Shown piece by piece: positions 1-13,441 of a DNA stretch of 41,307 nucleotides (position 1 is the stretch's first letter; each line of letters begins with the position of its first letter). The notes below the pieces were generated by a model, which worked only from the letters and a program-made list of their open reading frames with translations, had not been told where the DNA came from and searched no databases. A program made the translations under genes and the position numbers. Origin of the DNA: an uncultured Trueperaceae bacterium (GTDB lineage Bacteria; Deinococcota; Deinococci; Deinococcales; Trueperaceae); the NCBI GenBank assembly GCA_913062675.1, contig CAJXWR010000009.1, positions 1 to 41,307 of the forward strand, given 5' to 3'.

Positions 1-2
1 GA

Positions 3-22
3 GGTGCGTGAAGGCACGCACC
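3..22. other. Stem-loop just before the first gene
   Basis: GGTGCGTG (3-10) and CACGCACC (15-22) are perfect complements around an AAGG loop. The purine-rich ribosome binding site of the first gene (23-33) follows at once. It could be the terminator of a gene left of the window or a 5'-UTR hairpin. No U-tract follows. Confidence 0.5.
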
Positions 23-35
23 GGAAAGGAAGGCT

Positions 36-665
36 ATGCGACGCAACTGGAGAGCCAATCACACGATTCGTTTTGGGGTACGGGCAACCGCAGTCTTTGT
101 GTTGCTCAGTTTGACCAGTGTGTCACTTGCCCAAGTCATGACGACCGAGTACCAGGAGGTTGCTCAAGTCTCGATGTCAGATGTCGCCCAGAGCTTAGTG
201 GTCACCAACGATGATTGGGCCGCCTCAATTGGTGAGAGCACCATGACGAAGTCCATCGTGGTCAGCAATGCGCTCTTCTACACGCTCAGCAATGGCACGC
301 ATGTCACCGCGCAAATCTCGTCCATCAATGGCGAAAGCCCCGACCAACTTCAGGCGCATGCGCTAGATGCGATCGCATCTCTGAGTGTTGCCGTAGAGAA
401 AGGCGACAACTCGGGTAGTGGTGACTCGTTAGGTGAGCTCTGGAATGACATTGCTGGTACATCGGAAGCAGAAGGAGTCGCTGGTGCGACCGTCGTCGTC
501 GACGAGCTCTTCGGCACTCAAGCCCACGGTCGCTCTTCGGATTCGGACATTGGTATCGGTCAAGGAGCCGATGTGACCTTCTCTTTGACTATCGACGTTG
601 AAGATGGTCCCACTTTCCCTTCCACTTCGCTTGAGATTCTCTTTACGGCACTGTCGTCAGAGTAG
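36..665 (+). CDS. Small secreted beta-rich protein, possible surface subunit
   Basis: This 209-residue protein has a basic N-terminus and a hydrophobic signal segment (about residues 15-31), with likely cleavage after SVSLA so that Gln becomes the first mature residue. The mature part is rich in Ser, Thr, Val and Asp with alternating hydrophobic residues, suggesting beta strands. The last strands (FSLTIDVEDG, LEILFTALSS) resemble the edge strands of fimbrial or coat-like subunits. No catalytic motif or cysteine is seen. ATG 36 follows a strong GGAAAGGAAGG ribosome site. The stop is only 4 nt before the GTG of the PapD-like gene, so they probably form one operon. The family is not recognised; the subunit role is inferred from neighbours. 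Base composition is less GC-biased than most of the window. Confidence 0.6.
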   Translation: MRRNWRANHTIRFGVRATAVFVLLSLTSVSLAQVMTTEYQEVAQVSMSDVAQSLVVTNDDWAASIGESTMTKSIVVSNALFYTLSNGTHVTAQISSINGESPDQLQAHALDAIASLSVAVEKGDNSGSGDSLGELWNDIAGTSEAEGVAGATVVVDELFGTQAHGRSSDSDIGIGQGADVTFSLTIDVEDGPTFPSTSLEILFTALSSE

Positions 666-669
666 CCTC

Positions 670-1548
670 GTGTCCTTGGCGCTCAAGGTTTTCAAGCAAT
701 CCATGCTTCTCCTGGCCCTTGGGTTTATTGGGGATTTAGGCCGTGCACAATTCGTCGTGACCACGGGCCTAGACGAGATTGCCAATCTTCGACCTGGAGA
801 ATCAAAACGCTTCGCCATCGGTGTCACCAACACCGGTGGTGAGGCGCGTACTGCAAGCATTCGCTTCGTCGATCACCAAGTCATCGACGGCGGCAACCAG
901 TTTCTCGAACCAGGCAAGCTGGAACGCTCGCTTGCCAATTGGCTCATCACACGGCCCAGCGTCAGCCTTGAGCCAGGCGAGTCGATCACCCTGTTTGTCG
1001 ACGTCCAAGTACCTTCCAACGTGAACAACGGAGGGACGTACTGGGGTGTCCTTCTGATCGAGCCAGATGAGGCGACGCAAGCGACCGAGGTGGCGGATGT
1101 GAATCGGGAACGAGGGGAAGGTGAGGACGTAACGATTCACTTCCGGTACCGAATTCGCACGGCCATTCAACTCGTCGTCAACCTTCCAGGGAACGAGAAG
1201 CCGCAGATTGAACTTCGCGACCCCGTCGTGACCCGTACGCCGGAGGGAACGATTGAGCTGCGGGTCGCGATCGCCAACGAAGGAGGCAGGTGGGCTCGCT
1301 CATCCACCTTGAACCTCGATGTATACGAGGCGCAGACGGGATCGAAGGTGATGTCTTCCGAAAGGTCGGTTGCGCGGCTCTATCCGGGAAGCAATCGCCA
1401 CGCCACGTTCGACATGGGCCATCTCGAATCAGGGAGATACCAGCTCGTCCTACTAGCTGAGGTGGCAGGTGACGTGGTGGCGGCCACACGCTTCGATCTC
1501 GACGTCGAACCACAGCATCCTTCGCCAGGTCCTGAGGGTGCACCCTGA
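670..1548 (+). CDS. Secreted PapD-like Ig-fold protein (chaperone-like)
   Basis: The protein is exported, with signal segment SMLLLALGFIGDLGRA and Gln as the likely first mature residue. It has an N-terminal immunoglobulin-like domain (about residues 25-175) with features seen in pilus-chaperone and DUF916-type proteins: a GESKRFAIGVTNTGG strand pair, SVSLEPGESITLFVDVQVP, and a GGTYWGVLLIEP strand. A second Ig-like domain (about 180-285) has ELRVAIANEGG and ends in YQLVLLAEV. The start is placed at GTG 670, which lies 4 nt after the previous stop; ATG 703 is an alternative that shortens the signal peptide. It sits between a small secreted protein and a large usher-like protein. Family knowledge supports a role in folding or delivering secreted subunits, but the classical PapD Arg/Lys anchor pair could not be assigned, so the function is inferred. 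Confidence 0.55.
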   Translation: MSLALKVFKQSMLLLALGFIGDLGRAQFVVTTGLDEIANLRPGESKRFAIGVTNTGGEARTASIRFVDHQVIDGGNQFLEPGKLERSLANWLITRPSVSLEPGESITLFVDVQVPSNVNNGGTYWGVLLIEPDEATQATEVADVNRERGEGEDVTIHFRYRIRTAIQLVVNLPGNEKPQIELRDPVVTRTPEGTIELRVAIANEGGRWARSSTLNLDVYEAQTGSKVMSSERSVARLYPGSNRHATFDMGHLESGRYQLVLLAEVAGDVVAATRFDLDVEPQHPSPGPEGAP

Positions 1549-1557
1549 CGTGCAGGC

Positions 1558-4554
1558 GTGACCCGGAATCCACGTCACGCCATGCATGTCGTTCGACGAT
1601 GGTGCACCACGGGATTGATCCTGCTCGTCGGCAATCTCTGTCATGCAACGAGTCCTGTCACAGCGAACCCGCAGGGTCTCGTGACACTCCTCGTCCCCAT
1701 CCAAAACACGACCGAGCGAACGACCCACGTGACCGTGAACGTCGATGTCCCCCCGGACTGGGTGATGCTCGTACCTTTCTCGGCAACCCGGCTTCCCGCG
1801 GGGGCCCGCCTGGTGCAGCCCGTCATTTTGCGCGCCGGTTCCCACGTTCCAGCAGGAAGCCACGAGATCACGGCCACCACGTTCGTGAACGGCGATCGAA
1901 GTGAGAGGCAACACTTCCTCGTCGACGTCCCAAGACGACCCTCCCTCAGCATTGACGTTGACCCACCACCAGCCCTGTTGACGAGCGTAGAGACTCGAAT
2001 CCGCGTGCACGTCACCAACACCGGCAACGTTCAGGACGGTGTGACCATCACTGTCGCTGGTGGCGTTGCATCCGCGACCCGCAACTTTGACCTTGCGCCT
2101 GGGGAGATGCAAACCGTGGACGTCGAGGTGCAGGTCGCTGCACCCCGCGGCGTCCTACACGAAGAGACCCTCACGATTGAAGCGCACTCCAGGTATGGCG
2201 TGAGCGCCAAGACCAAGACCACCCTGAAGGTTCTCCTTCCAGGCTCGCCACTCCCACCCACATTGCCCGCGACCCTGCGCCTGCAGGCGGCGACCCGTGA
2301 CGGTTTCACGCTCACGGGTTCAATCCAGGGAGGGGGTCCCATCACCGAGGATGGGCATCACCAACTGGGGTTCCGCGTGACGAAAGAGGATGACGAGCCA
2401 GGTAAGGCGTCCCTGAAGTACACCGCTCCGGCCTGGGGCGTCACCGCAGGCCACCAAACGCTCGAGGTACACCGTGACCTCGCAGACTTCGATGGCTACG
2501 GCTTCGCCGTCACGTTCGAGCCCCCACGCGACGCTTGGCCCTCGGTTCGATCCGTGGCGTACCTTGCGCAGTCGGAGCGTGCCACCACGACGGGTGCAAG
2601 CGACCGTGCACCGCACGCAGGCATGGGAATTCGTGCTGCATGGCCATCGGGATTGCGGGCCGACGTCGCTTGGCAATGCGTAGGTGCGCAGCCCGAAGCA
2701 CTCGCTCGACTTGCGGGCGACCTTGCGATGCTCTCCAATGCGTGGACGAGCGCATGGAAAGTCGCCGTGCGCAGTGGGTCGGCCGTGACCTGGTCGACGT
2801 CGATCGAGGGTGCGCGAGAGGAGATGAATGCGCGGGTGGCTGCCTGGTGGAGGCCAACCGAGCCATCGGGCAGTCTCGAGGCGCACCTACGCATTTCCGT
2901 TCCCAGTGAATGGACCGTACCGTTGGGCGCCCGAACCACCTCGTCGCTTGCGGTCACGGCGCGGCGCGAGTGGGGCGTGGATTCGTCCGATCCCGTCGGC
3001 CCGGATGCGGCCGTGGAACGCGCCACGAGGCAGAACCTTCGCGTTTCATGGGACGCCACGACCCCCACCACGCAACTGGGTATCGCCATTGAGCGAAGCC
3101 GCCTGGACCCCGAGGGCACGCATGTGTCCACCGAAACCACCGACGTCGACGTACGCGTGCGCCACCGTCCAGAGACGGAGAGCGATCAGCGTTCTCGCGT
3201 CATCATCACGACCATGGGCTGGTCGACGACGCAACCTGACGACCCCATGTGGCGGGCCGGTGTGCGCGTGAATCGCACGGATGGGGACTTCGTCACGGCG
3301 GCGAGTCTCGACGTGGTGGGCGCACCAAGACCCACACGCCTGCAGGAGTTGCGAGCCCAGTTTCAAGGATCGCGCGTCACGAAGGCGTGGCGGTTCGATG
3401 GAGACCTCGGCGCGGCGCTCGAGGAAGGCGAATGGACCGTGGAGATGACGGGTACCTGGAGTGGGACGAGGGGTGCCGCGCCCACGCTGCAGGCCTACGC
3501 ACGCTTCAATCGAGATGGGGAGGATGCACCACGTCGCCACGTCCTCCTTCATGCAGCGTCCGCCTGGCCGCTGCCTTCACCTTGGCAGGGTTGGGTGACG
3601 GCCGACTTCGTGCTGGATGCGCCGTCCGACCAATCGTGGTTCACGGCCGAACCGGGCGATTCGTTGCTGGTGATCCATGCATCGGCGTCGCGCGACGTGA
3701 CGTGGCGAGACCGCTGGGTCGGGTTGCGCCTCGATGCCCACGTGGCCCGTCACCTCGACACGCCACGGTCGGGAATCACCTTGTCCGGTGAGGCGTCCTG
3801 GCAGGATGGCGCTGCCGTGGGCGTGGGGGTCGACGTCGTGGGGCGCGGCGTAGCGGAGCCGGCGAGTTGGGGTGTTTCTGGAAGCATCACGAGACCGTTC
3901 ACCCTGCCACTTCCCGAGCGCGTGAGGCGCGGTCAGGTCACCGGCCGCATCCTTGATGAGGATGGTGAGCCCTGGGCGGGCTTGGTCGTGAACGTGGGGG
4001 GCGTGGCGACCCGAACGGCTGGGGATGGCACGTTCACACTGGAGGGCGTTCCCGTGGGTGGGCACGTCCTGTCGTTCCCGCTGGCGGGTCGAGAGGCGGA
4101 CATGCTGTTCGAACCGGCCGACGGCAAGGTCGTTCAAGTCACGACGGACGCGCCGGTGCATCTCGACGTGCTGGCGGCGTGGCCAGGTGACGTGAGTGCT
4201 CAGGTGGTGATCGATCAAGCTGGACGTTCGATCGCTGGGGCGCCACAGGATGCGGTCATGATCGCGAAGGACGTCCCCCTGGCAGGTTGGCAGGTGACGC
4301 TGCAGCGCGGGACGGTGCGTCGAATGGGTGTGAGTGACGCGGCGGGATACGTCACGTTCACGAGGCTCCTGCCGGGTCGCTGGTTCGTCACGGTGGATGC
4401 GCCGGCGGGTCTCGAGGCAGATCAGGTGGAGGTCGGTGACGTCCCCCCCTTCGTGACCGTGGAGTCGGGTGGTGAGGTGCACTTCGGTTTGCCGGTTGCG
4501 CCACGGGTTCAGGAGGTACGCGTCACGGAGGGTGGTTCACTGCGCGTGCCGTGA
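1558..4554 (+). CDS. Large exported Ig/beta-rich protein with regulatory-like repeats, usher-like
   Basis: The 998-residue protein has a signal peptide (GLILLVGNLCHA). Residues about 35-220 hold two Ig-like NEW3/COG1470-type domains (VPIQNTTERTTHVTVNV; IRVHVTNTGNVQDG). Residues about 240-790 are long alternating polar/hydrophobic stretches with many Trp and Arg, as expected for amphipathic strands of an outer-membrane barrel. Residues about 795-865 form a carboxypeptidase regulatory-like domain (GQVTGRILDEDGEPWAGLVV, then TAGDGTFTLEGVPVG), and about 905-960 form a second Cna-B-like repeat (GYVTFTRLLPGRWFVTVDAP). The order Ig, barrel-like, small beta domains recalls fimbrial ushers, but no usher motif was matched, so it could instead be a surface adhesin. 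The start is GTG 1558 or ATG 1582; both keep the signal peptide. Confidence 0.55.
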   Translation: MTRNPRHAMHVVRRWCTTGLILLVGNLCHATSPVTANPQGLVTLLVPIQNTTERTTHVTVNVDVPPDWVMLVPFSATRLPAGARLVQPVILRAGSHVPAGSHEITATTFVNGDRSERQHFLVDVPRRPSLSIDVDPPPALLTSVETRIRVHVTNTGNVQDGVTITVAGGVASATRNFDLAPGEMQTVDVEVQVAAPRGVLHEETLTIEAHSRYGVSAKTKTTLKVLLPGSPLPPTLPATLRLQAATRDGFTLTGSIQGGGPITEDGHHQLGFRVTKEDDEPGKASLKYTAPAWGVTAGHQTLEVHRDLADFDGYGFAVTFEPPRDAWPSVRSVAYLAQSERATTTGASDRAPHAGMGIRAAWPSGLRADVAWQCVGAQPEALARLAGDLAMLSNAWTSAWKVAVRSGSAVTWSTSIEGAREEMNARVAAWWRPTEPSGSLEAHLRISVPSEWTVPLGARTTSSLAVTARREWGVDSSDPVGPDAAVERATRQNLRVSWDATTPTTQLGIAIERSRLDPEGTHVSTETTDVDVRVRHRPETESDQRSRVIITTMGWSTTQPDDPMWRAGVRVNRTDGDFVTAASLDVVGAPRPTRLQELRAQFQGSRVTKAWRFDGDLGAALEEGEWTVEMTGTWSGTRGAAPTLQAYARFNRDGEDAPRRHVLLHAASAWPLPSPWQGWVTADFVLDAPSDQSWFTAEPGDSLLVIHASASRDVTWRDRWVGLRLDAHVARHLDTPRSGITLSGEASWQDGAAVGVGVDVVGRGVAEPASWGVSGSITRPFTLPLPERVRRGQVTGRILDEDGEPWAGLVVNVGGVATRTAGDGTFTLEGVPVGGHVLSFPLAGREADMLFEPADGKVVQVTTDAPVHLDVLAAWPGDVSAQVVIDQAGRSIAGAPQDAVMIAKDVPLAGWQVTLQRGTVRRMGVSDAAGYVTFTRLLPGRWFVTVDAPAGLEADQVEVGDVPPFVTVESGGEVHFGLPVAPRVQEVRVTEGGSLRVP

Positions 4555-4642
4555 CGGTTCCAAGTCGGTGCTGGGGGGTGATGGGTGGAGATTTAGTGGA
4601 ATGGGACTCGCCTATTGGAGTTCGATGTTCGGGAGTCTTGCG

Positions 4643-5401
4643 CTAGAGCTGGCTCCAAGTGGGAGCACCGGGTGTGGTCGGTGGGTCGCCGGTCTTGCGT
4701 GGGAAGCGCAGCACGAAGGTACCGGGATGCGAGCGGCTCGGGGCGTAATGCAGGTCGCCTCCCATGTCGCGCATGAGGTTGGATGCAATCGACAGCCCGC
4801 GTCCGCGACGTGCACGAGGGTCCGTGTCCGGACCGAGGTTCGACGCTTCCTTCGTCACCTGCAGGTCGTCAGGTAGGCCATGCCCTTCGTCACGAACCAC
4901 CACGAGGACGTGACGTGCCTCGAGGATGGGGGCCTCGACGCAAACCCGACCACCGCCATGATGGATTGCGTTCACCACGACGTTCAGGATGGCGTGACGC
5001 GCCGTCACGGGATGGCCATGGACCCACAGGGTTGAATCGGGGACCGATACGGAGAGGGGAACGCCCCGCAGCTCGGCGAGGCCGCGCGCTCGTTCGTCCA
5101 CCTCCGCGAGGGCCAAGGTGAGGTCGGCGCGGTTTTCCTTCGCGGGTACATGGCGATCCCGTCTGGGTTCGATGGCCGACAGGACGTCCTCGAGGAGGAT
5201 GTGGAGCTGCGTTGCGGCGTCTTGCACGTGCGCAAGCGCAGCGCGATGTGGGGCGCTCTTGACGTCGCTTTCCAGAAGGCGGGCGTATCCCTCGATGATT
5301 TGTAGGGGCGCTCGCACGTCGTGTGCAAGGAGGCGCAACCATGCTTCGAGGTCATGGTTTGCGTGGTTCGCGGTCGTTTGGGTTGCGGGAATGGTGGGCA
5401 T
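4643..5401 (-). CDS. Soluble sensor histidine kinase
   Basis: A histidine kinase of 252 residues with no membrane segment and almost no sensor region. The phospho-acceptor His is H27 in LAHDVRAPLQIIEGYARLLE, the HisKA dimerisation helix. The ATPase domain follows with N-box NVVVNAIHHGGG, G1 box VRDEGHGLP, and G2 box RGRGLSIASNLMRDMGG. ATG 5401 is chosen because the reading frame upstream of it (to 5719) is Ser/Thr/Arg-rich shadow sequence overlapping the start of the divergent receiver gene. It is divergently oriented from a stand-alone receiver (85 nt apart), its likeliest partner. The input must come through a partner or a cytoplasmic signal. It converges with the usher-like gene (88-nt spacer, 4555-4642). 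Confidence 0.85.
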   Translation of the reverse strand: MPTIPATQTTANHANHDLEAWLRLLAHDVRAPLQIIEGYARLLESDVKSAPHRAALAHVQDAATQLHILLEDVLSAIEPRRDRHVPAKENRADLTLALAEVDERARGLAELRGVPLSVSVPDSTLWVHGHPVTARHAILNVVVNAIHHGGGRVCVEAPILEARHVLVVVRDEGHGLPDDLQVTKEASNLGPDTDPRARRGRGLSIASNLMRDMGGDLHYAPSRSHPGTFVLRFPRKTGDPPTTPGAPTWSQL

Positions 5402-5486
5402 CGCGCCATCATCATTCTCGGTGGTTACGCGGCGATGTCGGCGCTTGCCATCGGCACCAAAGTGACATTCAGGCGTAACGCCGAGG

Positions 5487-5999
5487 ATGGATTCTTGCCA
5501 CATGCAGCGAGCGGTCGTCGTCCAACGAGATGGGGTGAATGACTTGTCTCCAGGGGATTCGCACGTGGTGGACGTATCCACGTCCCGTGCGGATTGCCAC
5601 GTGCTCGTCGTGGATGACGACGCCGTCATGCGCCGACTCGTCGTGACCCTGCTGCGCGCGCTCGGGATGGCGCACGTGTCGGCATGTCGTTGCGGGACGG
5701 AGGCGGTCGCAGCATGCACGTCGGGAGGCGTCGACGTGGCGCTCGTCGACCGTCACCTTGCTGGTGAGGACGGCGTCGATTTGATCGAGCGCATCGGCAG
5801 GATGGCGCCCGAGGGCGGTCCGGTCATGCTTATGCTCACGGGTGACGATCATCCTCAGGTTGCTCGGCGCGCCTTGGCCGCGGGGGCGTGGGACGTCCTG
5901 GTTAAACCGTTCGATCCGGAGGTTCTCGTCAGGCGCATCGACTGCCTCCTTCGCTTGCAGAGGCGTCGTGAGTGCGTGGGCGAGCCTCCGCAGCCTTAG
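5487..5999 (+). CDS. Stand-alone CheY-like response receiver
   Basis: A single receiver domain with no output domain. All phosphorylation residues are present, counted from ATG 5487: acidic pocket D43-D45 in VLVVDDDAVMRR, phospho-acceptor D88 in VALVDRHLAGEDG, T118 in LMLTGDD, and K140 in VLVKPFDPE. The first 36 residues are low in structure; internal GTG or TTG codons near 5535 would also leave a full receiver, so the start is uncertain. Divergent from the histidine kinase and upstream of three OmpR-type regulators, it is the only fully intact receiver of the cluster. It may act as the phosphate carrier or sink for the kinase, working through protein-protein contact. Confidence 0.8.
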   Translation: MDSCHMQRAVVVQRDGVNDLSPGDSHVVDVSTSRADCHVLVVDDDAVMRRLVVTLLRALGMAHVSACRCGTEAVAACTSGGVDVALVDRHLAGEDGVDLIERIGRMAPEGGPVMLMLTGDDHPQVARRALAAGAWDVLVKPFDPEVLVRRIDCLLRLQRRRECVGEPPQP

Positions 6000-6036
6000 A
6001 GGCAAACGTACCTTGCGAAGGATTTCACGAGCACCG

Positions 6037-6050
6037 TACCGTTCCGTGTG
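6037..6050 (+). promoter_or_regulatory. -10-like box 5 nt before a GTG start
   Basis: TACCGT (6037-6042) lies 5 nt before the GTG start codon at 6048. No Shine-Dalgarno sequence is visible between them. The spacing fits a leaderless transcript. No convincing -35 was found. Confidence 0.35.
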
Positions 6051-6767
6051 CAGCCTTCCAGCCTCACCCTCGACGCGAAACGAGCGCGACGCGTCCCCCA
6101 CGTCCTCGTCGCCTGTGGAACCAAAGCGACACGGGCACCCATCGTGGACGCCCTCAGGGCGCAAGGGCGCATCGTCTCGGAGGTCGAGACACCCCATGAG
6201 GCCATCGAGATCGCCTCCCGCTGCGATCTGATCCTGCTCGAGGTTGCCAGCAGCGACGCCTGGAAACTCGCTAGGGAGGTTCTCGACGCATACCCCACGA
6301 TGCCCCTCGTAATTCTCGGGGAAGCTGGCTCCGCCGAGGAGGAGATTCGCGCCTTCGACGTCGGAGCTGAGGATTACGTGTGCCGCCGGACCGACCCTGC
6401 CGTCATCGCCGCGCGGGTGACGGCTGCCCTGCGTCGGCGTCGGCATGGTGAGGTGCTCCGCTTCGGGGAGGTCACCATCGACCTCGGGCACCGCACCGCC
6501 TATCGGTTCGACGAACGGTTACGCTTAACTGCCCTCGAGTTCGATCTGCTCGTGACGCTCGCGACGCACCCGATGCGTGTTTGGTCACGTTCTGAACTGC
6601 TGCGCTCGGTATGGAGTGAGTCGACGGAAGCCATGGAACGCACCGTCGACGTCCGAATTCGGCACCTCAGAAAGGCACTGGGTGATGACGTGAGTACCCC
6701 CACCTACATCGAAACCGTCCGTGGGCGTGGGTATCGCTGGACCTGCCCTCCGGTCGACCGAACCTGA
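6048..6767 (+). CDS. OmpR-type DNA-binding regulator with degenerate receiver
   Basis: The 239-residue protein has a receiver-like domain (about 17-128) and a winged-helix Trans_reg_C domain (about 138-233; LTALEFDLLVTLATHP, SRSELLRSVW, TVDVRIRHLRKALGDD, VRGRGYRW). The receiver fold is clear but its chemistry is lost. The acidic pair is VACG, the phospho-acceptor Asp is replaced by Glu (E65 in DLILLEV), the Thr/Ser switch position is Gly (VILGEAG), and the Lys is Arg (YVCRRTDP). Glu at that position often mimics phospho-Asp, so the protein may be constitutively active or respond to something else. The start is GTG 6048. It is the first of three tandem paralogues, the other two also being altered in the receiver. 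Confidence 0.85.
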   Translation: MQPSSLTLDAKRARRVPHVLVACGTKATRAPIVDALRAQGRIVSEVETPHEAIEIASRCDLILLEVASSDAWKLAREVLDAYPTMPLVILGEAGSAEEEIRAFDVGAEDYVCRRTDPAVIAARVTAALRRRRHGEVLRFGEVTIDLGHRTAYRFDERLRLTALEFDLLVTLATHPMRVWSRSELLRSVWSESTEAMERTVDVRIRHLRKALGDDVSTPTYIETVRGRGYRWTCPPVDRT

Positions 6768-6806
6768 GATACCGGAGTTAAGTTACATTGTTGTCATGCG
6801 ATGCGG

Positions 6807-6812
6807 TATGCT
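6807..6812 (+). promoter_or_regulatory. -10 box of a leaderless short ORF
   Basis: TATGCT (6807-6812) is a good -10 match placed 6 nt before ATG 6819. GTTACA (6782-6787) could be a weak -35 with a 19-nt spacer. If used, transcription would start at or within a nucleotide or two of the ATG. Confidence 0.4.
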
Positions 6813-6818
6813 GCCGGT

Positions 6819-6860
6819 ATGACGCACCAAAACGCACCAGCCACGGGGCGCCCATCATGA
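6819..6860 (+). CDS. Possible 13-codon leader ORF coupled to regulator
   Basis: ATG 6819 opens a 13-codon frame (MTHQNAPATGRPS) closed by TGA at 6858-6860. That stop overlaps ATG 6857 (ATGA) and touches ATG 6860 (TGATG), the two candidate starts of the next regulator. A -10-like box lies 6 nt upstream, so the ORF would be translated from a leaderless message and its ribosomes would terminate exactly on the regulator's start. No Shine-Dalgarno precedes the regulator, which makes coupling plausible. It is too short to prove as coding. Confidence 0.35.
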   Translation: MTHQNAPATGRPS

Positions 6861-7573
6861 TGCACGGTTTGGGGCGCCTCAACCCCAGCAGCCGCACCCT
6901 CATCCTCGTCGACAACGACGACCGTCACGCGATCAGCGAGTACCTCGAGGAGCGTGGCCTCGCGACCGTCGTTGCGAACGACGTCGATCACGCCATTCGC
7001 CTCGCACCCGACGTCACCGTCGCGCTGCTCGACGTCAGTCGACCCGAGGTGCAAGATCTCGCCCATGGCTTCCGGCGCTACCGGCCCGAACTCGCGCTGG
7101 TCACGCTGACCGAGGAGCGGGATGCCCGCCTCGCCACACGCATGCTCGACCTCGACGTCGAGGATCACTTCGCACGCCCGTTCGACCTCGAGCTGCTCGC
7201 CTGGCGACTGTCCGCCGTCTTCACCGCAAGTCTCGGCCTGAAGACGGGCGGAACGTTCGACCTTCGCTTCGACGAGTCGTCCCGCACCGTCTACCACGCC
7301 GGTCGGTCCACCCGACTCACCCCCAGCGAATTCCGGCTCGTCACCACCCTCGCCCGCAAACCCGGTCACGTGTTCAAACGGCATGACGTCATTCGACGCG
7401 TGTGGGGCTCCGACTCGGAGAACGGAGAGCGAGCCGTCGACGCGCTCGTCAGCCGCACCCGACGGCACCTGCACCAAGGCGTGGGTCTCGACCCGGACGT
7501 CATCCGCACCGTACGGGGTGTCGGATACCAACTCGAACGACGCCGTAAACCCCGGAACGGAGCGGTTGGATGA
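6857..7573 (+). CDS. OmpR-type DNA-binding regulator, receiver Lys replaced by Arg
   Basis: The 238-residue protein has a receiver domain (about 13-120) and a winged-helix domain (about 130-230; LTPSEFRLVTTLARKPG, KRHDVIRRVWG, AVDALVSRTRRHL, VRGVGYQLE). The receiver keeps an acidic pocket (D19, D21 in LILVDNDD), acceptor D59 (VALLDVSRPE) and T85 (VTLTEER), but the invariant Lys is Arg (HFARPFD), which should weaken phosphorylation chemistry. The start is ATG 6857 (or 6860) because it overlaps the stop of a short leader ORF; a frame extending to 6788 has no support. The stop overlaps the next regulator's ATG by 4 nt (ATGA), so the two are translated together. Confidence 0.85.
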   Translation: MMHGLGRLNPSSRTLILVDNDDRHAISEYLEERGLATVVANDVDHAIRLAPDVTVALLDVSRPEVQDLAHGFRRYRPELALVTLTEERDARLATRMLDLDVEDHFARPFDLELLAWRLSAVFTASLGLKTGGTFDLRFDESSRTVYHAGRSTRLTPSEFRLVTTLARKPGHVFKRHDVIRRVWGSDSENGERAVDALVSRTRRHLHQGVGLDPDVIRTVRGVGYQLERRRKPRNGAVG

Positions 7574-8250
7574 ACACGGCAAGCGATCAAGGCAAACTCC
7601 TCGTCGTCCAAGCCAACCCCAAGCACCGCGGCGTGAATCTCTCCGCCCTCGAACGCGCCGGCTACCAACTCCGCATCATCGCGGACGAGAAGGCCAAGCC
7701 GCAGGACGTGAAGAAGTCGACCCGAGCCGTCCTCCTCGATGGCCTCGACGAACCCGGATGGCGGTTCCTGCGCAGTACGCTCGAGGAGCAACCCAACCTG
7801 CCCGTCATCGTCAGCAGCAACGGCCTCGAGACGCGCGCCATCATCGGCCTCCTCGACATTGGCGTCGCCGCCCACACCGATCCCTCCACCGGCACGCAGG
7901 AGCTCATCGCCCGCATTGCCTGGGCCCGCAGGCGAGCGGAACGACCCGATGTGGACAACGGCCCCTCCCTCGAGATTGACGACACGCAACGACGCATCTG
8001 GCTCAACGGCGCGCCTCTCGATCTCCCGAGGCGCGAGTTCGACGTGCTTGCCGTCCTCATGATGAACGTCGGCAACATCATCACGCGCGACCGGCTCATG
8101 CAGGCCGTCTGGGGACCGGGCTACAAGACGGGCTCACGCTCCCTCGACGTGCGCGTAAGCCGCATCCGAAAACTGCTTCGCGATCAAGGTGGGGAAGAAG
8201 CACCCCTCGTCGAGACGGTGCCCGGTGTCGGCTACCGCCTCGTCATGTAA
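7570..8250 (+). CDS. OmpR-type DNA-binding regulator with degenerate receiver
   Basis: The 226-residue protein has a pseudo-receiver (about 8-120) and a C-terminal winged-helix domain (about 128-224; LPRREFDVLAVLMMNVGN, TRDRLMQAVWG, LDVRVSRIRKLLRDQ, VPGVGYRLV). The acidic pair is replaced (VVQAN). An Asp is kept at the acceptor position (D57 in AVLLDGLD), Ser sits at the switch position (S82), and the Lys motif is absent (VAAHTDPSTG). Phosphorylation by the usual route is therefore unlikely. It starts on the ATGA overlap with the previous gene and ends about 20 nt before a strong palindrome. DNA targets are unknown; co-production with its neighbour suggests heteromeric or sequential regulation, which is inference. 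Confidence 0.85.
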   Translation: MNTASDQGKLLVVQANPKHRGVNLSALERAGYQLRIIADEKAKPQDVKKSTRAVLLDGLDEPGWRFLRSTLEEQPNLPVIVSSNGLETRAIIGLLDIGVAAHTDPSTGTQELIARIAWARRRAERPDVDNGPSLEIDDTQRRIWLNGAPLDLPRREFDVLAVLMMNVGNIITRDRLMQAVWGPGYKTGSRSLDVRVSRIRKLLRDQGGEEAPLVETVPGVGYRLVM

Positions 8251-8272
8251 CGAAACGACCCTACGAAGAAGC

Positions 8273-8306
8273 GATCGAGCCAGGCACGGCCGTGCCTGGC
8301 TCGATC
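8273..8306. terminator. 34-nt perfect palindrome, bidirectional terminator
   Basis: Two 17-nt arms (GATCGAGCCAGGCACGG and its complement) are exactly self-complementary; in RNA this gives a 15-bp stem with a GGCC loop. It lies between convergent genes (regulator ending at 8250, TRAP permease ending at 8424). No long U-tract follows on either strand. The remaining stretch to 8423 holds a weaker inverted repeat (GTTCGACA 8324-8331, TGTCGAAC 8358-8365) and no ORF of note. Confidence 0.65.
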
Positions 8307-8423
8307 ATCAGGGAAGGGCGGGAGTTCGACAGGACCCGTTGGAGAGAGGGTTGTCAGTGTCGAACCGGGGGACCCACCCGAACGAATCATCACCTGACAT
8401 CGTTTCCCGATTGTTACCAACCG

Positions 8424-10526
8424 TCACACCGCCATGGCGTCCGGCGTACCGGGAGCATCCCGACGCGACCGCGCGAAGTTGAGAAGCAACACCACGACGA
8501 TCAACAGGAACCCTGCGATTTCGACGAGGTGATTCGGATAGAAGATGCCGATCATCCCCGCCGTTGCCAGAATCCGCGAGAACCACAGCATGCGCGTGAA
8601 CAGGTACCCCTCGATCGCCGCTGCGAACGCACCCAGCGCGGCGAACGCGGTCACCACCGTCCAACCCACGTACCACCAGTCACCCCCCAGCACGATCTCC
8701 GGGTTGAACACCATGAACAACGGGATTAGGTACAGGCCCTTCGCAAACTTCCACGCCTCCACCCCCGTCCTCATGGGGTTCGCCCCTGCAACGCCCGCGC
8801 CCGCGAATGCGGCGAGTGCGACGGGTGGGGTCACGTTCGAGTCCTGCGAGTACCAGAACACCAGCAGGTGCGCGATCACGAGCGGAATCCCAAACTCTTG
8901 GGTCAACGCCGGACCGGTCAGCACGATCAACACGATGTAGCTCGCCGTCACCGGGAGACCCATCCCCAGGATGAGGCTCGCCAGCACGACGAGCAGCAAG
9001 GCGAGGAGCAGGTTTCCGCCCGAGAACGACAACATGAGCGACGAGAACTTCAGGCCCAGGCCGGTCAAGCTCACCACGCCCACCACGATGCCGGCCACGG
9101 CACACGCGATCGACACGGGAAGCGCATTCCGCGCCCCAACCTCGAGCGCCTCGAGCGTCTTCACTGAACCGCGCAGCAGCGAAGTGAGCCAAGACTCCTC
9201 CGCCCCACGCTGCTCCTCGCGCCGCGTTCCCAAGCGACCGAACAGCGTGTTCGGTGCCGCACTCTCGACACCCGGCACGCTCGACCCGTCATCGACGGGC
9301 GGGCGACCCAACGCGATGCGACGCACCACGTACCGCGCGACGGACACGGCGAGAATCGCAATGATGGAGATGAAACCCACCCGGGCGGGTGAAATGTTGC
9401 GAATCAGGAACCAGATCAAGATCCCCAGCGGGATCAGGAAGTGCCACCCCCGCGCAAACACGTCGCGGACGCGCGGCAGCTCATCCGACGTCATGCCCCG
9501 CATGCCACGTTTCGCTGCGATGATGTCGACGAACAGGTACACCGTCACGAAGTACAAGATGGCAGGAAGGATGGAGATCGACACGATCTCCACGTACGGA
9601 ATGCGCGTGTACTCGGCGATCAGGAATGCGCCGGCGCCCATGATGGGTGGCATGATCTGTCCACCCGTCGAGGCAGCCGCCTCCACGCCCCCGGCTTCCT
9701 CCGGCTTGTAGCCCAACTTCTTCATCAGCGGAATCGTGAACGCACCCGTCGTGACGACGTTCGCAATCGCGCTCCCCGAAATCGAGCCCATGAAACCCGA
9801 CGCGATGACTGATGCCTTCGCCGGTCCGCCCCGTTGACGACCCGCCACCGCGTACGCCAGGTCGATGAAGAACCGCCCCGCCCCCGTGACTTCGAGGAAC
9901 GCCCCGAACAACACGAAGATGAACACGAAGGTTGCGGCGACGCCAAGAGGAATCCCGAAGATGCCCTCCTGCCCAAGGAACAACTGATCCACGATGCGAT
10001 TCACGTCGTACCCGCGGTGCTGCAAGATGCCGGGCAGCGTGATGCCCGAGATGAGGCCCCGTGGACCCGTCATGGCATACAGGATGAACACCACGCCAAT
10101 GATCGTGATCGTCGGGCCAATCACCCGACGCGCAGCCTCGAGCACCATCACGGTGCCGATGGCACCCATCACGATGTCCTGCTGGGTGTAGAACCCCGAC
10201 CGGTTCACGATCGCCGTGAGGTTGAAGATCAGGTACCCCGTGGAAACGAGCGAACCTGCGATGAACACGAGGTCCACCGGCCAGCGAATCCACGCCTTCT
10301 TGCTGACGGGGAACAGCAAGAAGGCCAGCACCAACACGAATGCCAAGTGGCCACCGCGCTGGTAGAACAGGTTCACCGTCTGAATGCCCGCCGTGTACAA
10401 CTGAAACAGGGAAAGGCCAATCGCCACCGCCGCAATCGCCATCGCGAGGAGCGGGGCAATCGTGTACGCGTTGGGCGCACTCGGCGCGGTTGCGCCACCA
10501 CCGTCGGTTGCATCGGGTCGCATCAC
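8424..10526 (-). CDS. TRAP transporter fused 4TM/12TM permease (TAXI type)
   Basis: A 700-residue integral membrane protein with many hydrophobic helices. The N-terminal part (about 25-190) corresponds to the small DctQ-like subunit, and the rest is the DctM-like channel, with conserved-looking loops such as SGSAIANVVTTGAFTIPLMKK, GGQIMPPIMGAGAFLIAEYT and LGMGLPVTASYIVL. The fused layout with a TAXI binding protein and a DUF1850 protein is the standard TRAP-TAXI arrangement, a sodium- or proton-driven importer of organic acids. A linker rich in charged residues (about 400-445) separates two helix blocks. The start is GTG 10526 or ATG 10523 in a GTGATG cluster that overlaps the TGA of the upstream DUF1850 gene. 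The substrate cannot be read from the sequence. Confidence 0.92.
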   Translation of the reverse strand: MMRPDATDGGGATAPSAPNAYTIAPLLAMAIAAVAIGLSLFQLYTAGIQTVNLFYQRGGHLAFVLVLAFLLFPVSKKAWIRWPVDLVFIAGSLVSTGYLIFNLTAIVNRSGFYTQQDIVMGAIGTVMVLEAARRVIGPTITIIGVVFILYAMTGPRGLISGITLPGILQHRGYDVNRIVDQLFLGQEGIFGIPLGVAATFVFIFVLFGAFLEVTGAGRFFIDLAYAVAGRQRGGPAKASVIASGFMGSISGSAIANVVTTGAFTIPLMKKLGYKPEEAGGVEAAASTGGQIMPPIMGAGAFLIAEYTRIPYVEIVSISILPAILYFVTVYLFVDIIAAKRGMRGMTSDELPRVRDVFARGWHFLIPLGILIWFLIRNISPARVGFISIIAILAVSVARYVVRRIALGRPPVDDGSSVPGVESAAPNTLFGRLGTRREEQRGAEESWLTSLLRGSVKTLEALEVGARNALPVSIACAVAGIVVGVVSLTGLGLKFSSLMLSFSGGNLLLALLLVVLASLILGMGLPVTASYIVLIVLTGPALTQEFGIPLVIAHLLVFWYSQDSNVTPPVALAAFAGAGVAGANPMRTGVEAWKFAKGLYLIPLFMVFNPEIVLGGDWWYVGWTVVTAFAALGAFAAAIEGYLFTRMLWFSRILATAGMIGIFYPNHLVEIAGFLLIVVVLLLNFARSRRDAPGTPDAMAV

Positions 10527-11044
10527 GGAGCTCCAATCGTCATCACCACGCGTTGCCGCGGAACGAGGGTGGAAAGGTTGACCTGCTGCCCGGCCACGAT
10601 GAGCGTGTGATCGTTCACGCCCACGTCCCCCACGCGCAGCACGAAGCGGTTGCCAAGAATCGGCTCATCGATGTCGCGAACCCAGTACCCGCTCGCGCCA
10701 TCGCTCTCCAGTCGACCCCGACCGGGGATGTGACCCAATCCCGCATCGAACGCAGGCATGTGGCTCTGCTCCAGCATCATCTGCCCCTCCTGCACTGCAA
10801 AATAGTCCTTCACCAAGATACCCGTCACCGAGTGACGCCACTGCAAAACCCACGCGGCATCCTCGGGAAGATCGATCGTCACCACCGGCTCACCCGAATC
10901 GAATAGGTGCACCGATAGGGCCTGCACGTCACTGGGACCCGACGAGCACGCCAGAGAAAGCGGCGCGAGCACCATGAGAACGGCAAGGAGACGAAGAAGG
11001 GGGACTCCTAGGAATCCCCCTTCGCGAGGCACGTCAAGCGCCAA
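10523..11044 (-). CDS. DUF1850 lipoprotein of the TRAP-TAXI transporter
   Basis: The 173-residue protein has a lipoprotein signal (LLRLLAVLMVLAPLSLAC, lipobox LSLAC) followed by a small beta-rich domain. It contains WVLQWRHSVTGILVKDYFAV, as in DUF1850 proteins that accompany TAXI-TRAP systems; their role is not established. The start is most likely TTG 11044 or GTG 11032, since the internal ATG leaves too short a signal. It overlaps the permease gene by 4 nt. A 9-bp stem-loop lies within its first codons, so its expression relative to the binding protein may be reduced. Confidence 0.75.
   Translation of the reverse strand: MALDVPREGGFLGVPLLRLLAVLMVLAPLSLACSSGPSDVQALSVHLFDSGEPVVTIDLPEDAAWVLQWRHSVTGILVKDYFAVQEGQMMLEQSHMPAFDAGLGHIPGRGRLESDGASGYWVRDIDEPILGNRFVLRVGDVGVNDHTLIVAGQQVNLSTLVPRQRVVMTIGAP
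10996..11023 (-). terminator. Stem-loop between TAXI binding protein and membrane genes
   Basis: On the minus strand GAAGGGGGA and TCCCCCTTC-type arms (plus positions 10996-11004 and 11015-11023) pair around a 10-nt loop and are followed by the pyrimidine-rich TTCTTCGTCTCC. It looks like a partial terminator that lowers read-through from the binding-protein gene. It lies inside the 5' end of the DUF1850 frame. Confidence 0.5.
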
Positions 11045-11067
11045 GAACGTTCAACCTTCGTCCCGAA

Positions 11068-12051
11068 TTAGTTCGGGGGAAGGAGATCGGCCGGGACGTC
11101 GTAGCCCTGGTCCTGGTAGTAACGCACGGCGCCGGGGTGCATCGGGATGGGCGACGCGGCGAGCGCAAGTTCCGGTGTCGTGTTGTTCGCGCTCGGGTGC
11201 ACGGCGATGACCTCGTCGATGTGCTCGAACAGGATGCTGAGGAAGTTGTACGCAAGGTCCTCATCCATCTCGGCCGCCGCGAGGATCACGTTCGGCGTTC
11301 CGATCGTCGTCACGTCCTCGTCCACGCCGGGGTACGTACCGCCAGGCAGCGTGACGGGGGCGAACACGTCGCTGGCACCCAGGCCATTCTCGAGCTCGTC
11401 ACCCACGAGGCTCACGATGTGAATGTCGCGCGTGGTGGCAAGATCGAGAATCGAGCTGGTGGGCGGACCCACCGACCAGAAGCCCGCGTCGATGTCGCCA
11501 TCGCGAAGCGCGGACGCGGTCTCGTTGAAGTTCAGGCGCTGCTCGTCGAAATCGTCGTACGTGATGCCGTTCGCCTCGAGGATCGCGGCGGCCGACACTT
11601 CCGTGCCCGACCCGGGCGCACCCACAGAAACGCGCTTGCCCACGAGATCGGCGAGGCTTTCGATGCCACTGCCCTCGAGCGTCACGAGGTGCACGGTGTT
11701 CGCGTACGCCACGCCCAACGCGCGCAGGTTCGGAAGCTGCGGGGGTTGCCCTTCGCCACCGAAGTTGCCCGTGCCGGTGTAAGCCTGCAACACCGTATCG
11801 GCCAGCGCGAGCGCAATGTCGGACTCACCGCGGGCAATGAAGCCGGCGTTGGCGACCGAAGCGCCCGTCGCCTCGGCAGCGGCGGTGTAGCCATCGAGGT
11901 ACTTGTTGATCAGCTCGGCGTATGCACCACCGGTCGGGTAGTACGTGCCTCCGGTACCGCCGGTGGCGATGGAGAGGCTGCCCTGCGCGAACGCGACGCC
12001 AAGGAACAGGGCGACGGCCGCGACGAGCGCGTGCGGTAGACGGTTCAACAT
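11068..12051 (-). CDS. TAXI-family TRAP solute-binding protein
   Basis: A periplasmic binding protein of 327 residues. The signal peptide LVAAVALFLGVAFA has likely cleavage before Gln. The family signature follows: LSIATGGTGGTYYPTGGAYAELIN, GASVANAGFIARGESDIALA, LVGKRVSVGAPGSGTEVSAA and GDIDAGFWSVGPPTSSI. It delivers an organic acid (in the family, often glutamate or 2-oxoacids) to the fused permease. ATG 12051 is preceded by AGGAGGAAT, a strong ribosome site. It is the first gene of a three-gene minus-strand operon and is transcribed divergently from the CoA-transferase gene. Confidence 0.93.
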   Translation of the reverse strand: MLNRLPHALVAAVALFLGVAFAQGSLSIATGGTGGTYYPTGGAYAELINKYLDGYTAAAEATGASVANAGFIARGESDIALALADTVLQAYTGTGNFGGEGQPPQLPNLRALGVAYANTVHLVTLEGSGIESLADLVGKRVSVGAPGSGTEVSAAAILEANGITYDDFDEQRLNFNETASALRDGDIDAGFWSVGPPTSSILDLATTRDIHIVSLVGDELENGLGASDVFAPVTLPGGTYPGVDEDVTTIGTPNVILAAAEMDEDLAYNFLSILFEHIDEVIAVHPSANNTTPELALAASPIPMHPGAVRYYQDQGYDVPADLLPPN

Positions 12052-12238
12052 GCGATTCCTCCTACGTGAACGAAACGAACCTACCTACGTTCGGATTGTG
12101 TGCCCCGACGAAAGAAAGGATGTACCCCGCCGGAGTTTGTATAAATTAACATGACGTTGGAATCCCACAACTAGAGTGTGTGACACAGAAACTGCCGATA
12201 TCTCGTCTGTGACGGTACTGCCGGTGGTACAACACGGC
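12052..12238. promoter_or_regulatory. Divergent intergenic region with A+T-rich core
   Basis: This separates the TAXI operon (minus) and the CoA-transferase (plus). An A+T-rich patch at about 12136-12150 contains TATAAA on the plus strand and TAATTT/TTATAC on the minus strand. On the minus strand TTGTGG precedes TAATTT by 16 nt, a possible promoter for the TAXI operon. No clear -35 was found for the plus strand. GTG 12176 and GTG 12209 could extend the CoA-transferase into this region. Confidence 0.35.
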
Positions 12239-13441
12239 ATGCTCGATGGCGTTCTCGTTCTCGACCTCTCGCGCGTCCTCGCGGGCCCGTACGCCACGCA
12301 ACTCCTCACAGACCTCGGTGCACGCGTCATCAAGATCGAATCGCCACGTGGTGACGACACACGCACCTGGGGACCGCCCTTCGTGGGAGAGGAGAGCGGC
12401 TACTTCCTCTCCGTCAATCGCGGCAAGGAAAGTCTCGCCATCGATTTGAAGAGCGAAGAGGGGCGAAGCATCGTCCAACGCCTCGCCCGCAAGGCCGACG
12501 TCCTCGTCGAGAACTTCAAGTTGGGAGATCTCACCCGCTACGGCCTTGATTACGAGCAGGTGGCCGAACACAACCCCGGCATCGTCTACGCCTCGATCCG
12601 CGGGTACGGCGAGACCGGTCCCCGGGCGAGCGAACCCGGCTACGACGCGGCACTCCAAGCGGTGACCGGCATCATGGCCATGACCGGCGAGGCCGGGAGA
12701 CCGCCCGTCAAACTCGGGGTGGCATGGATCGACGTGCTCACCGGCCTGCACGCCGCCGTCGGCATCCTCGCTGCCCTGCACGAACGCGGCAAGACCGGCA
12801 AGGGGACGCACCTCGACCTCTCGCTCTTCGAAGTGAGTCTCGCCAGCCTCGTCAACCAGGCGCAGGCGACCCTCCTCACGGGGCAACCCCCAGAACGACT
12901 CGGCAGCGCCCACCCGAGCATCGTGCCCTACCAGGCGTTCGACACGGCCGACGAATCGCTGGCCCTTACCGTGGGGAACGACGCGCAGTTCACCCGTGCC
13001 GTCGAGGTGCTCGGCCTCGCGAACCTCGCGGAGGATGACCGTTTTCGGGAGAATCGCGGGAGGGTGGAGCACCGCGAGGTTCTCATTCCCATGATTCAAG
13101 AGGCGCTACGCGGCGCGCCCCGCGCCGCATGGCTCGAACGCTTCCGCGAGGCGAACGTCAGTGCCTCACCCGTCTTGCATCTCGCCGATGCGCTCAACGA
13201 CCCGCAGGCTCAGGCGCTCGGCACGGTCGGCGCGTACGACCACCCCACGGCAGGCCGCGTCCCGTTCGTCCGCAGTCCCCTACGCCACCACGGCAATCCG
13301 GCGTACGACGGGGACGTCAATCCACCCCCTCGACTCGGTGAGCATGGCCGCGACATCCTCACGCGTGACCTTGGTCTGCACGAGGACGAGATCGAAGCCC
13401 TCGAGGCTTCCGGCTGCATCGTGACGACAAACGCGACCTGA
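12239..13441 (+). CDS. CoA-transferase family III (CaiB/BaiF type)
   Basis: A family III acyl-CoA transferase of about 400 residues. The N-terminal signature GVLVLDLSRVLAGPYATQLL and LGARVIKIESPRGDDTR match the family, as do FLSVNRGKESLAIDLKSEEG, VLVENFKLGDLTRYGLDYE and PGYDAALQAVTGIMAMTGE. The catalytic Asp is probably D165 (codon at 12731) in the VAWIDVLTGLHAAVGILAAL block, where oxalate:formate CoA-transferase has its acting Asp. ATG 12239 is chosen because the conserved region begins three residues later; GTG 12176 and GTG 12209 are alternatives. Next to a TAXI transporter it may activate the imported acid by CoA transfer; this pairing is inference. The acyl substrate is unknown. Confidence 0.9.
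   Translation: MLDGVLVLDLSRVLAGPYATQLLTDLGARVIKIESPRGDDTRTWGPPFVGEESGYFLSVNRGKESLAIDLKSEEGRSIVQRLARKADVLVENFKLGDLTRYGLDYEQVAEHNPGIVYASIRGYGETGPRASEPGYDAALQAVTGIMAMTGEAGRPPVKLGVAWIDVLTGLHAAVGILAALHERGKTGKGTHLDLSLFEVSLASLVNQAQATLLTGQPPERLGSAHPSIVPYQAFDTADESLALTVGNDAQFTRAVEVLGLANLAEDDRFRENRGRVEHREVLIPMIQEALRGAPRAAWLERFREANVSASPVLHLADALNDPQAQALGTVGAYDHPTAGRVPFVRSPLRHHGNPAYDGDVNPPPRLGEHGRDILTRDLGLHEDEIEALEASGCIVTTNAT

Follow-up and report, generated by a model that had tools for sequence, protein, structure and literature searches.

Three tandem OmpR-type regulators with degenerate receivers in an inherited exported-protein island of Trueperaceae

Pseudo-receivers (PsRs), i.e., receiver domains in which at least one of the five active-site residues is missing (PMC12632262, PMC12548384), make up approximately 6% of the receivers found in bacteria, and the way in which they are switched is still largely unexplained (PMC12632262). 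Precedents for pseudo-receiver or otherwise atypical regulators include GlnR, HP1043, ChxR, BldM/WhiI, and CmrT (PMC12632262, PMC12548384). The system nearest to the one described here is CmrRST of Clostridioides difficile, which comprises a kinase, an intact OmpR regulator, and the aspartate-less OmpR regulator CmrT (PMC12548384). Here, we analyzed a stretch of 41,307 nucleotides from an uncultured Trueperaceae bacterium (GenBank assembly GCA_913062675.1, contig CAJXWR010000009.1, positions 1 to 41,307 of the forward strand; hereafter the window), whose plus strand carries three adjacent genes for OmpR/PhoB-type regulators with degenerate receivers, namely R1 (6048-6767), R2 (6788-7573, likely start ATG 6857), and R3 (7570-8250). 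The trio lies in an inherited island, recognized by synteny, in which a fourth OmpR regulator (R0), genes for exported proteins, and R1-R2-R3 are placed between rpoD/GDPD and a TRAP transporter. We hold with modest confidence that R1-R3 are phosphorylation-independent pseudo-receiver regulators of this island, working by abundance and dimerization.

As in CmrRST, a pseudo-receiver OmpR regulator is linked here to an intact one, and CmrT resembles R1 in its Asp-to-Glu exchange and altered DD; a homo-/heterodimer model has been put forward for CmrRST. Unlike CmrRST, the present locus has three tandem pseudo-receiver regulators and four OmpR genes per island, and two of the three species have no kinase there. 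BldM and WhiI of Streptomyces are regulators of the NarL/FixJ type. They are also atypical and phosphorylation-free, and their heterodimer serves as a coincidence detector (PMC4125116, PMC12632262); unlike R1-R3, which are OmpR-type and include the overlapping R2 and R3 genes, they are not co-transcribed. GlnR, HP1043, ChxR, CosR, and RitR share the OmpR fold and a degenerate receiver, and the Asp retained in R2 and R3 is also present in GlnR, but these known proteins are encoded by single orphan genes, whereas the tandem trio shows a distinct pattern of degeneration in each member. To our knowledge, three pseudo-receiver regulators in tandem, with linkage to a fourth regulator that is itself partly degenerate, have not been described. 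Literature searches for pseudo-receiver regulators surfaced no such trio, and a search for Truepera two-component systems returned nothing relevant.

A sequence-only reading of the window had described five genes, i.e., a kinase, a CheY-like receiver, and the three regulators, and all were found at the positions and with the content that it gave. The active-site residues (acidic pair, Asp, Thr/Ser, and Lys) were scored in an alignment with MtrA, KdpE, RegX3, and relatives from the order, and were re-read by profile. R1, R2, and R3 carry the winged-helix effector domain of OmpR/PhoB regulators (PF00486, Trans_reg_C; 87.7, 71.7, and 76.8 bits, respectively, with a cut-off of 26.2 bits). Matches to the receiver family PF00072 were sub-threshold (23.3 bits for R1, 20.9 for R2, none for R3 of the window, and 16.4 for an R3 ortholog). 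All three proteins have the N-terminal receiver fold of this class, and the predicted model of R3 matches full-length OmpR-type regulators, including the phosphorylation-independent HP1043, CosR, RitR, and GlnR. None of the three receivers has the complete residue set of a canonical phosphorylatable receiver, and each is a PsR by its missing residues. In R1, all five residues are changed (acidic pair C/G, Asp to Glu, Thr to Gly, and Lys to Arg). R2 keeps Asp and Thr, with Lys replaced by Arg and an incomplete acidic pair whose first position is probably Val. R3 keeps Asp and has Ser at the Thr position, with the acidic pair replaced by Q/A and Lys by Pro. The substitutions named by the sequence-only reading were thus recovered, its list for R1 being too short. 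Only R1 of the window species is an aspartate-less receiver (ALR), since its orthologs, R2, and R3 retain Asp. At the residue level, the machinery of Asp phosphorylation is degraded in every member; in function, the three regulators very probably work without receiver phosphorylation, as had been proposed.

To place the trio, five genomes of the genus, mostly draft assemblies, were compared (G000, the window species, and G001 to G004), together with 111 genomes of the order. The window corresponds to contig C9 of the G000 assembly, which comprises 2.5 Mb in 196 contigs. The rpoD protein of this genome matches the SigA chains of entries 3dxj, 4g7h, and 1iw7, from Thermus, much more strongly than anything from other groups (492 versus 356 bits), which makes a place in the Deinococcota likely. 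R1-R2-R3 occur in the same order and orientation in G003 and G004, and their receivers are degenerate there too. R3 was matched at 433-441 bits in only 3 of the 111 genomes (439-441 bits in G003 and G004), the next best match reaching 107 bits. A scan of named genomes with R1 alone returned nothing other than generic OmpR relatives. The Asp-to-Glu exchange of R1 is peculiar to the window species, as R1 of both relatives keeps Asp. We counted 43 OmpR-type DNA-binding domains in the genus, including 28 full-length regulators outside the R1-R3 locus and contig C66. All nine R1-R3 receivers of the three genomes are degenerate, compared with 1 of these 28 (Fisher p = 8e-8, or 9e-4 with the trio counted once); the other 27 are intact, and the single exception has one Lys-to-Glu exchange. 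The degeneracy is therefore neither strain-specific nor due to chance. Homologous clusters with intact receivers, which the sequence-only reading had suggested looking for as counter-evidence, did not turn up, both orthologous trios being degenerate.

Selection on the trio was assessed from the ratio of nonsynonymous to synonymous substitution rates (dN/dS) for the pair G003 and G004, whose dS is unsaturated. The receivers of R1, R2, and R3 gave 0.37, 0.16, and 0.20, respectively, with intact-receiver controls at 0.06-0.21, and values were well below 1 in both the receivers and the DNA-binding domains. The receivers of R2 and R3 are under purifying selection in these two species. Between the window species and G003/G004, the receivers of R1-R3 are 33-40% identical and the DNA-binding domains 55-72%; intact orthologous pairs show no comparable gap (70-90% in receivers and 64-86% in DNA-binding domains). 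Most simply, the receivers would have escaped the constraint that phosphorylation imposes and would now be subject to a different one. The fast divergence of the receivers, along with an R1 dN/dS above the intact controls, is what one would expect if the trio were functionless remnants of an ancient two-component cluster in decay. Nevertheless, the frames are open and their order is kept in three species, the DNA-binding domains are conserved, the R2-R3 overlap is retained, and dN/dS stays well below 1; R1-R3 are probably not dead genes, and we regard decay as very improbable.

The start of R3 overlaps the stop of R2 by 4 bases (ATGA). A second adjacent pair of degenerate OmpR-type genes was observed on the minus strand of contig C66 of the window species (L145, 8883-10261), next to genes read from sequence as a cytochrome P450 and a CRP-like regulator. 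Its first member is nearest to R2 (73.7 bits) and its second to R3 (103.1 bits), in the order of R2-R3. Given the overlap and this repeated order, R2 and R3 may act as a pair. In the salt-bridge pattern of the dimer face, neither acidic residue at the beginning of beta5 is present in R3, and the last basic residue is missing from R2; this hints at R2-R3 or R1-R3 pairing and is too weak to build an argument on. In the tree, R0 groups with R1 (support 99/97), and R2 and R3 sit on long, deep branches, because of which a local in-place duplication was not adopted as the origin of the whole trio.

In the window species, two further signaling genes lie between the gene for the large exported protein and R1. 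The divergently oriented kinase (4643-5401, minus strand) has a reading frame that overlaps the receiver gene on the opposite strand; with the likely start corrected to ATG 5401, it encodes a 252-residue protein with DHp and ATPase domains and H, N, and G boxes, and the description of it as soluble and sensorless holds. RRc (5487-5999, plus strand) is a CheY-like single-domain receiver (82.3 bits) with all five active-site residues intact (VDDD, D, T, and K). It had been taken for the only complete receiver, which is correct within the window and incorrect for the locus, where R0 is intact as well. Conservation of the five-gene order, as the sequence-only reading had envisaged, was not found, since G003 and G004 keep R1-R2-R3 with neither a kinase nor a CheY-like gene at the locus. 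Neither gene has an ortholog elsewhere in those two genomes; no kinase ortholog was detected among the 111 genomes of the order and no RRc ortholog in the genus. The trio thus does not need the kinase and RRc, a component specific to the window species. A circuit centered on the two, as first proposed, is unsupported. One form of it would keep the phosphate on RRc, with R1-R3 responding to RRc by protein contact, in line with an intact RRc that is codirectional with the trio and lies 48 bp upstream of R1. As the trio persists in two species lacking RRc and the kinase, such contact cannot explain its retention in G003 and G004; it is possible in the window species, and we consider it unlikely overall.

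JadR1 is a ligand-binding atypical regulator. By analogy, the pseudo-receivers of R1-R3 could bind a small ligand or directly sense redox, pH, or another input, as some atypical regulators do, e.g., RitR for redox (PMC12632262), and R3 keeps an invariant VLLDGL(D/E)E-GWRFLRS at the old active site. On the other hand, the orthologs have no receiver cysteine in common, on which ground a RitR-like redox switch was rejected, and receivers of 33-40% identity show no evident preserved pocket. Direct sensing is an unlikely account of the trio.

The order in G003 and G004 is rpoD, GDPD, R0, a small exported protein, a CARDB-type exported protein, a large exported protein, R1, R2, R3, and a convergent TRAP transporter, the locus of G004 being split over two contigs. 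The TRAP gene directly follows rpoD in G001, and GDPD and a C69 peptidase follow rpoD in G002; these flanking genes without the island indicate that it sits at a fixed site. In the window species, the start of the window is the end of its contig and cuts the island, and the missing left half is at the end of contig C13, which carries rpoD, GDPD, a 243-residue DHp protein, R0, and the 5' part (107 codons) of another small exported-protein gene. Contig C13 would adjoin the window judging by synteny in the two relatives, the two contigs being unjoined in the assembly. R0 has a fully intact receiver in the window species; in G003 and G004, its acidic pair is gone and Asp, Thr, and Lys remain. Intact in the window species, DNA-binding, and at the flank of the same island, R0 is a more natural target for phosphate. 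The N-terminus of the DHp protein (L080, 1175-1906, minus strand) may be GAF-like; a histidine-acceptor helix with the H-box RRHETRNQLAILAGYAHLL is present, an ATPase domain is absent, and the stop codon of the gene overlaps the start of R0.

Kinase, single-domain receiver, DHp protein, and intact R0 are all present in this one genome, in genes at either end of a locus reconstructed by synteny, with the reservations of a weak DHp match and unjoined contigs. They could form a split phosphorelay in the window species, from the soluble kinase to RRc (Spo0F/SdrG-like), on to the DHp protein (Spo0B/PhyT-like), and finally to R0; R1-R3, themselves deaf to phosphorylation, would serve R0 as partners or be its targets. 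The logic is that of SdrG-PhyT-PhyR, which like Spo0F-Spo0B-Spo0A uses a single-domain receiver and a kinase-derived phosphotransferase encoded beside the output regulator (PMC5898713). The distribution of the genes is also in accord, as the kinase and the DHp protein lack orthologs order-wide and RRc lacks them genus-wide, and R0 is intact exactly where they occur. Unlike those systems, the relay here would be read from gene content only, its output is OmpR-type, and the DHp protein retains no ATPase remnant. Further, the DHp protein matches HisKA weakly (17.9 bits against a cut-off of 26.9), gave no hit in the PDB, and has no relatives among the 111 order genomes; R0 and the kinase are on different contigs whose adjacency comes from synteny, and the genes occur in one genome only. 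We regard the relay as possible though doubtful; it would extend regulation by abundance and dimerization and excludes none of it.

For the trio itself, we propose that R1, R2, and R3 would be made together and be active as made, with control exerted through their amount and through homo- and heterodimerization; they would act on the exported-protein genes next to them and on the operon that encodes them, and R0 would be the phosphate-responsive member in the window species. Several observations weigh against this proposal. R2 keeps Asp and Thr and its Lys-to-Arg exchange is conservative, so residual phosphorylation of R2 is possible. A scan of positions 4500-8500 found no sigma-70-like promoter, and no operator came to light. 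The link between trio and exported-protein genes consists of adjacency and co-occurrence in three of five genomes of one genus, the 998-residue large exported protein and the trio both being present in G000, G003, and G004 and both absent from G001 and G002. Finally, pairs of genes for a CARDB-type and a large exported protein occur at other loci of the order without the trio, so such proteins do not need R1-R3-type regulators in general. A further-reaching and more speculative idea, which we put forward tentatively, is a self-contained four-regulator switch of a surface-protein island, in which OmpR-type regulators (R2-R3, echoed by the pair on contig C66) would serve solely as pseudo-receiver dimer partners and read the state of the phosphorylatable R0. 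Absence of the kinase would then accompany degeneration of R0, and the circuit would have moved between phosphate and dosage control among sister species.

The remaining features of the locus concern the exported proteins and non-coding elements. The window opens with a small exported protein of 209 residues with no Pfam family (36-665, plus strand), the second in a tandem of two or more paralogs, of which the other is cut off where contig C13 ends. It is followed on the same strand by two conserved island genes, encoding an exported protein with CARDB/WxLIP-like domains by weak Pfam matches (598-1548) and the 998-residue protein with a NEW3-like N-terminus and a carboxypeptidase-regulatory-like C-terminus (1558-4554). 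Adjacent CARDB-type and large exported-protein genes recur across the order (L095, L096, L098, L099, and L101) and apparently constitute an uncharacterized exported system. We do not claim that the 998-residue protein is an usher or barrel, its structure model being unusable (mean predicted local distance difference test score 38.7), nor that the exported proteins belong to WxL/WxLIP, for which matches were weak and under or near the cut-offs. An identical 36-base leader precedes the two paralogous small exported-protein genes (window 1-36 and L080 328-363, minus strand) and contains the hairpin GGTGCGTG-AAGG-CACGCACC; at the leader position, G003 and G004 have another hairpin of similar shape, GCCGCC-GTGT-GGCGGC. 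Upstream of R0, the sequence of these two genomes is strongly conserved and includes the same 23-base palindrome in both, ACGAACGGAGCGGCGCCGTTCGT (L021, 3090-3112; L023, 4910-4932); this candidate operator was not seen at the locus of the window species. A 17-bp perfect inverted repeat resembling a terminator (8272-8307) lies between the convergent R3 and TRAP genes, and a gathering-threshold scan of window positions 1-12500 for known RNA elements found none.

Taken together, selection has kept three pseudo-receivers as an inherited group, whether or not the species has a kinase at the locus, and the accompanying R0 is intact in the window species and degenerate in G003 and G004. The R0-R3 island makes the notion of phosphate lost and function kept directly testable by comparison, and R1-R3 offer a natural set for asking whether pseudo-receivers act by dosage or as dimer partners.

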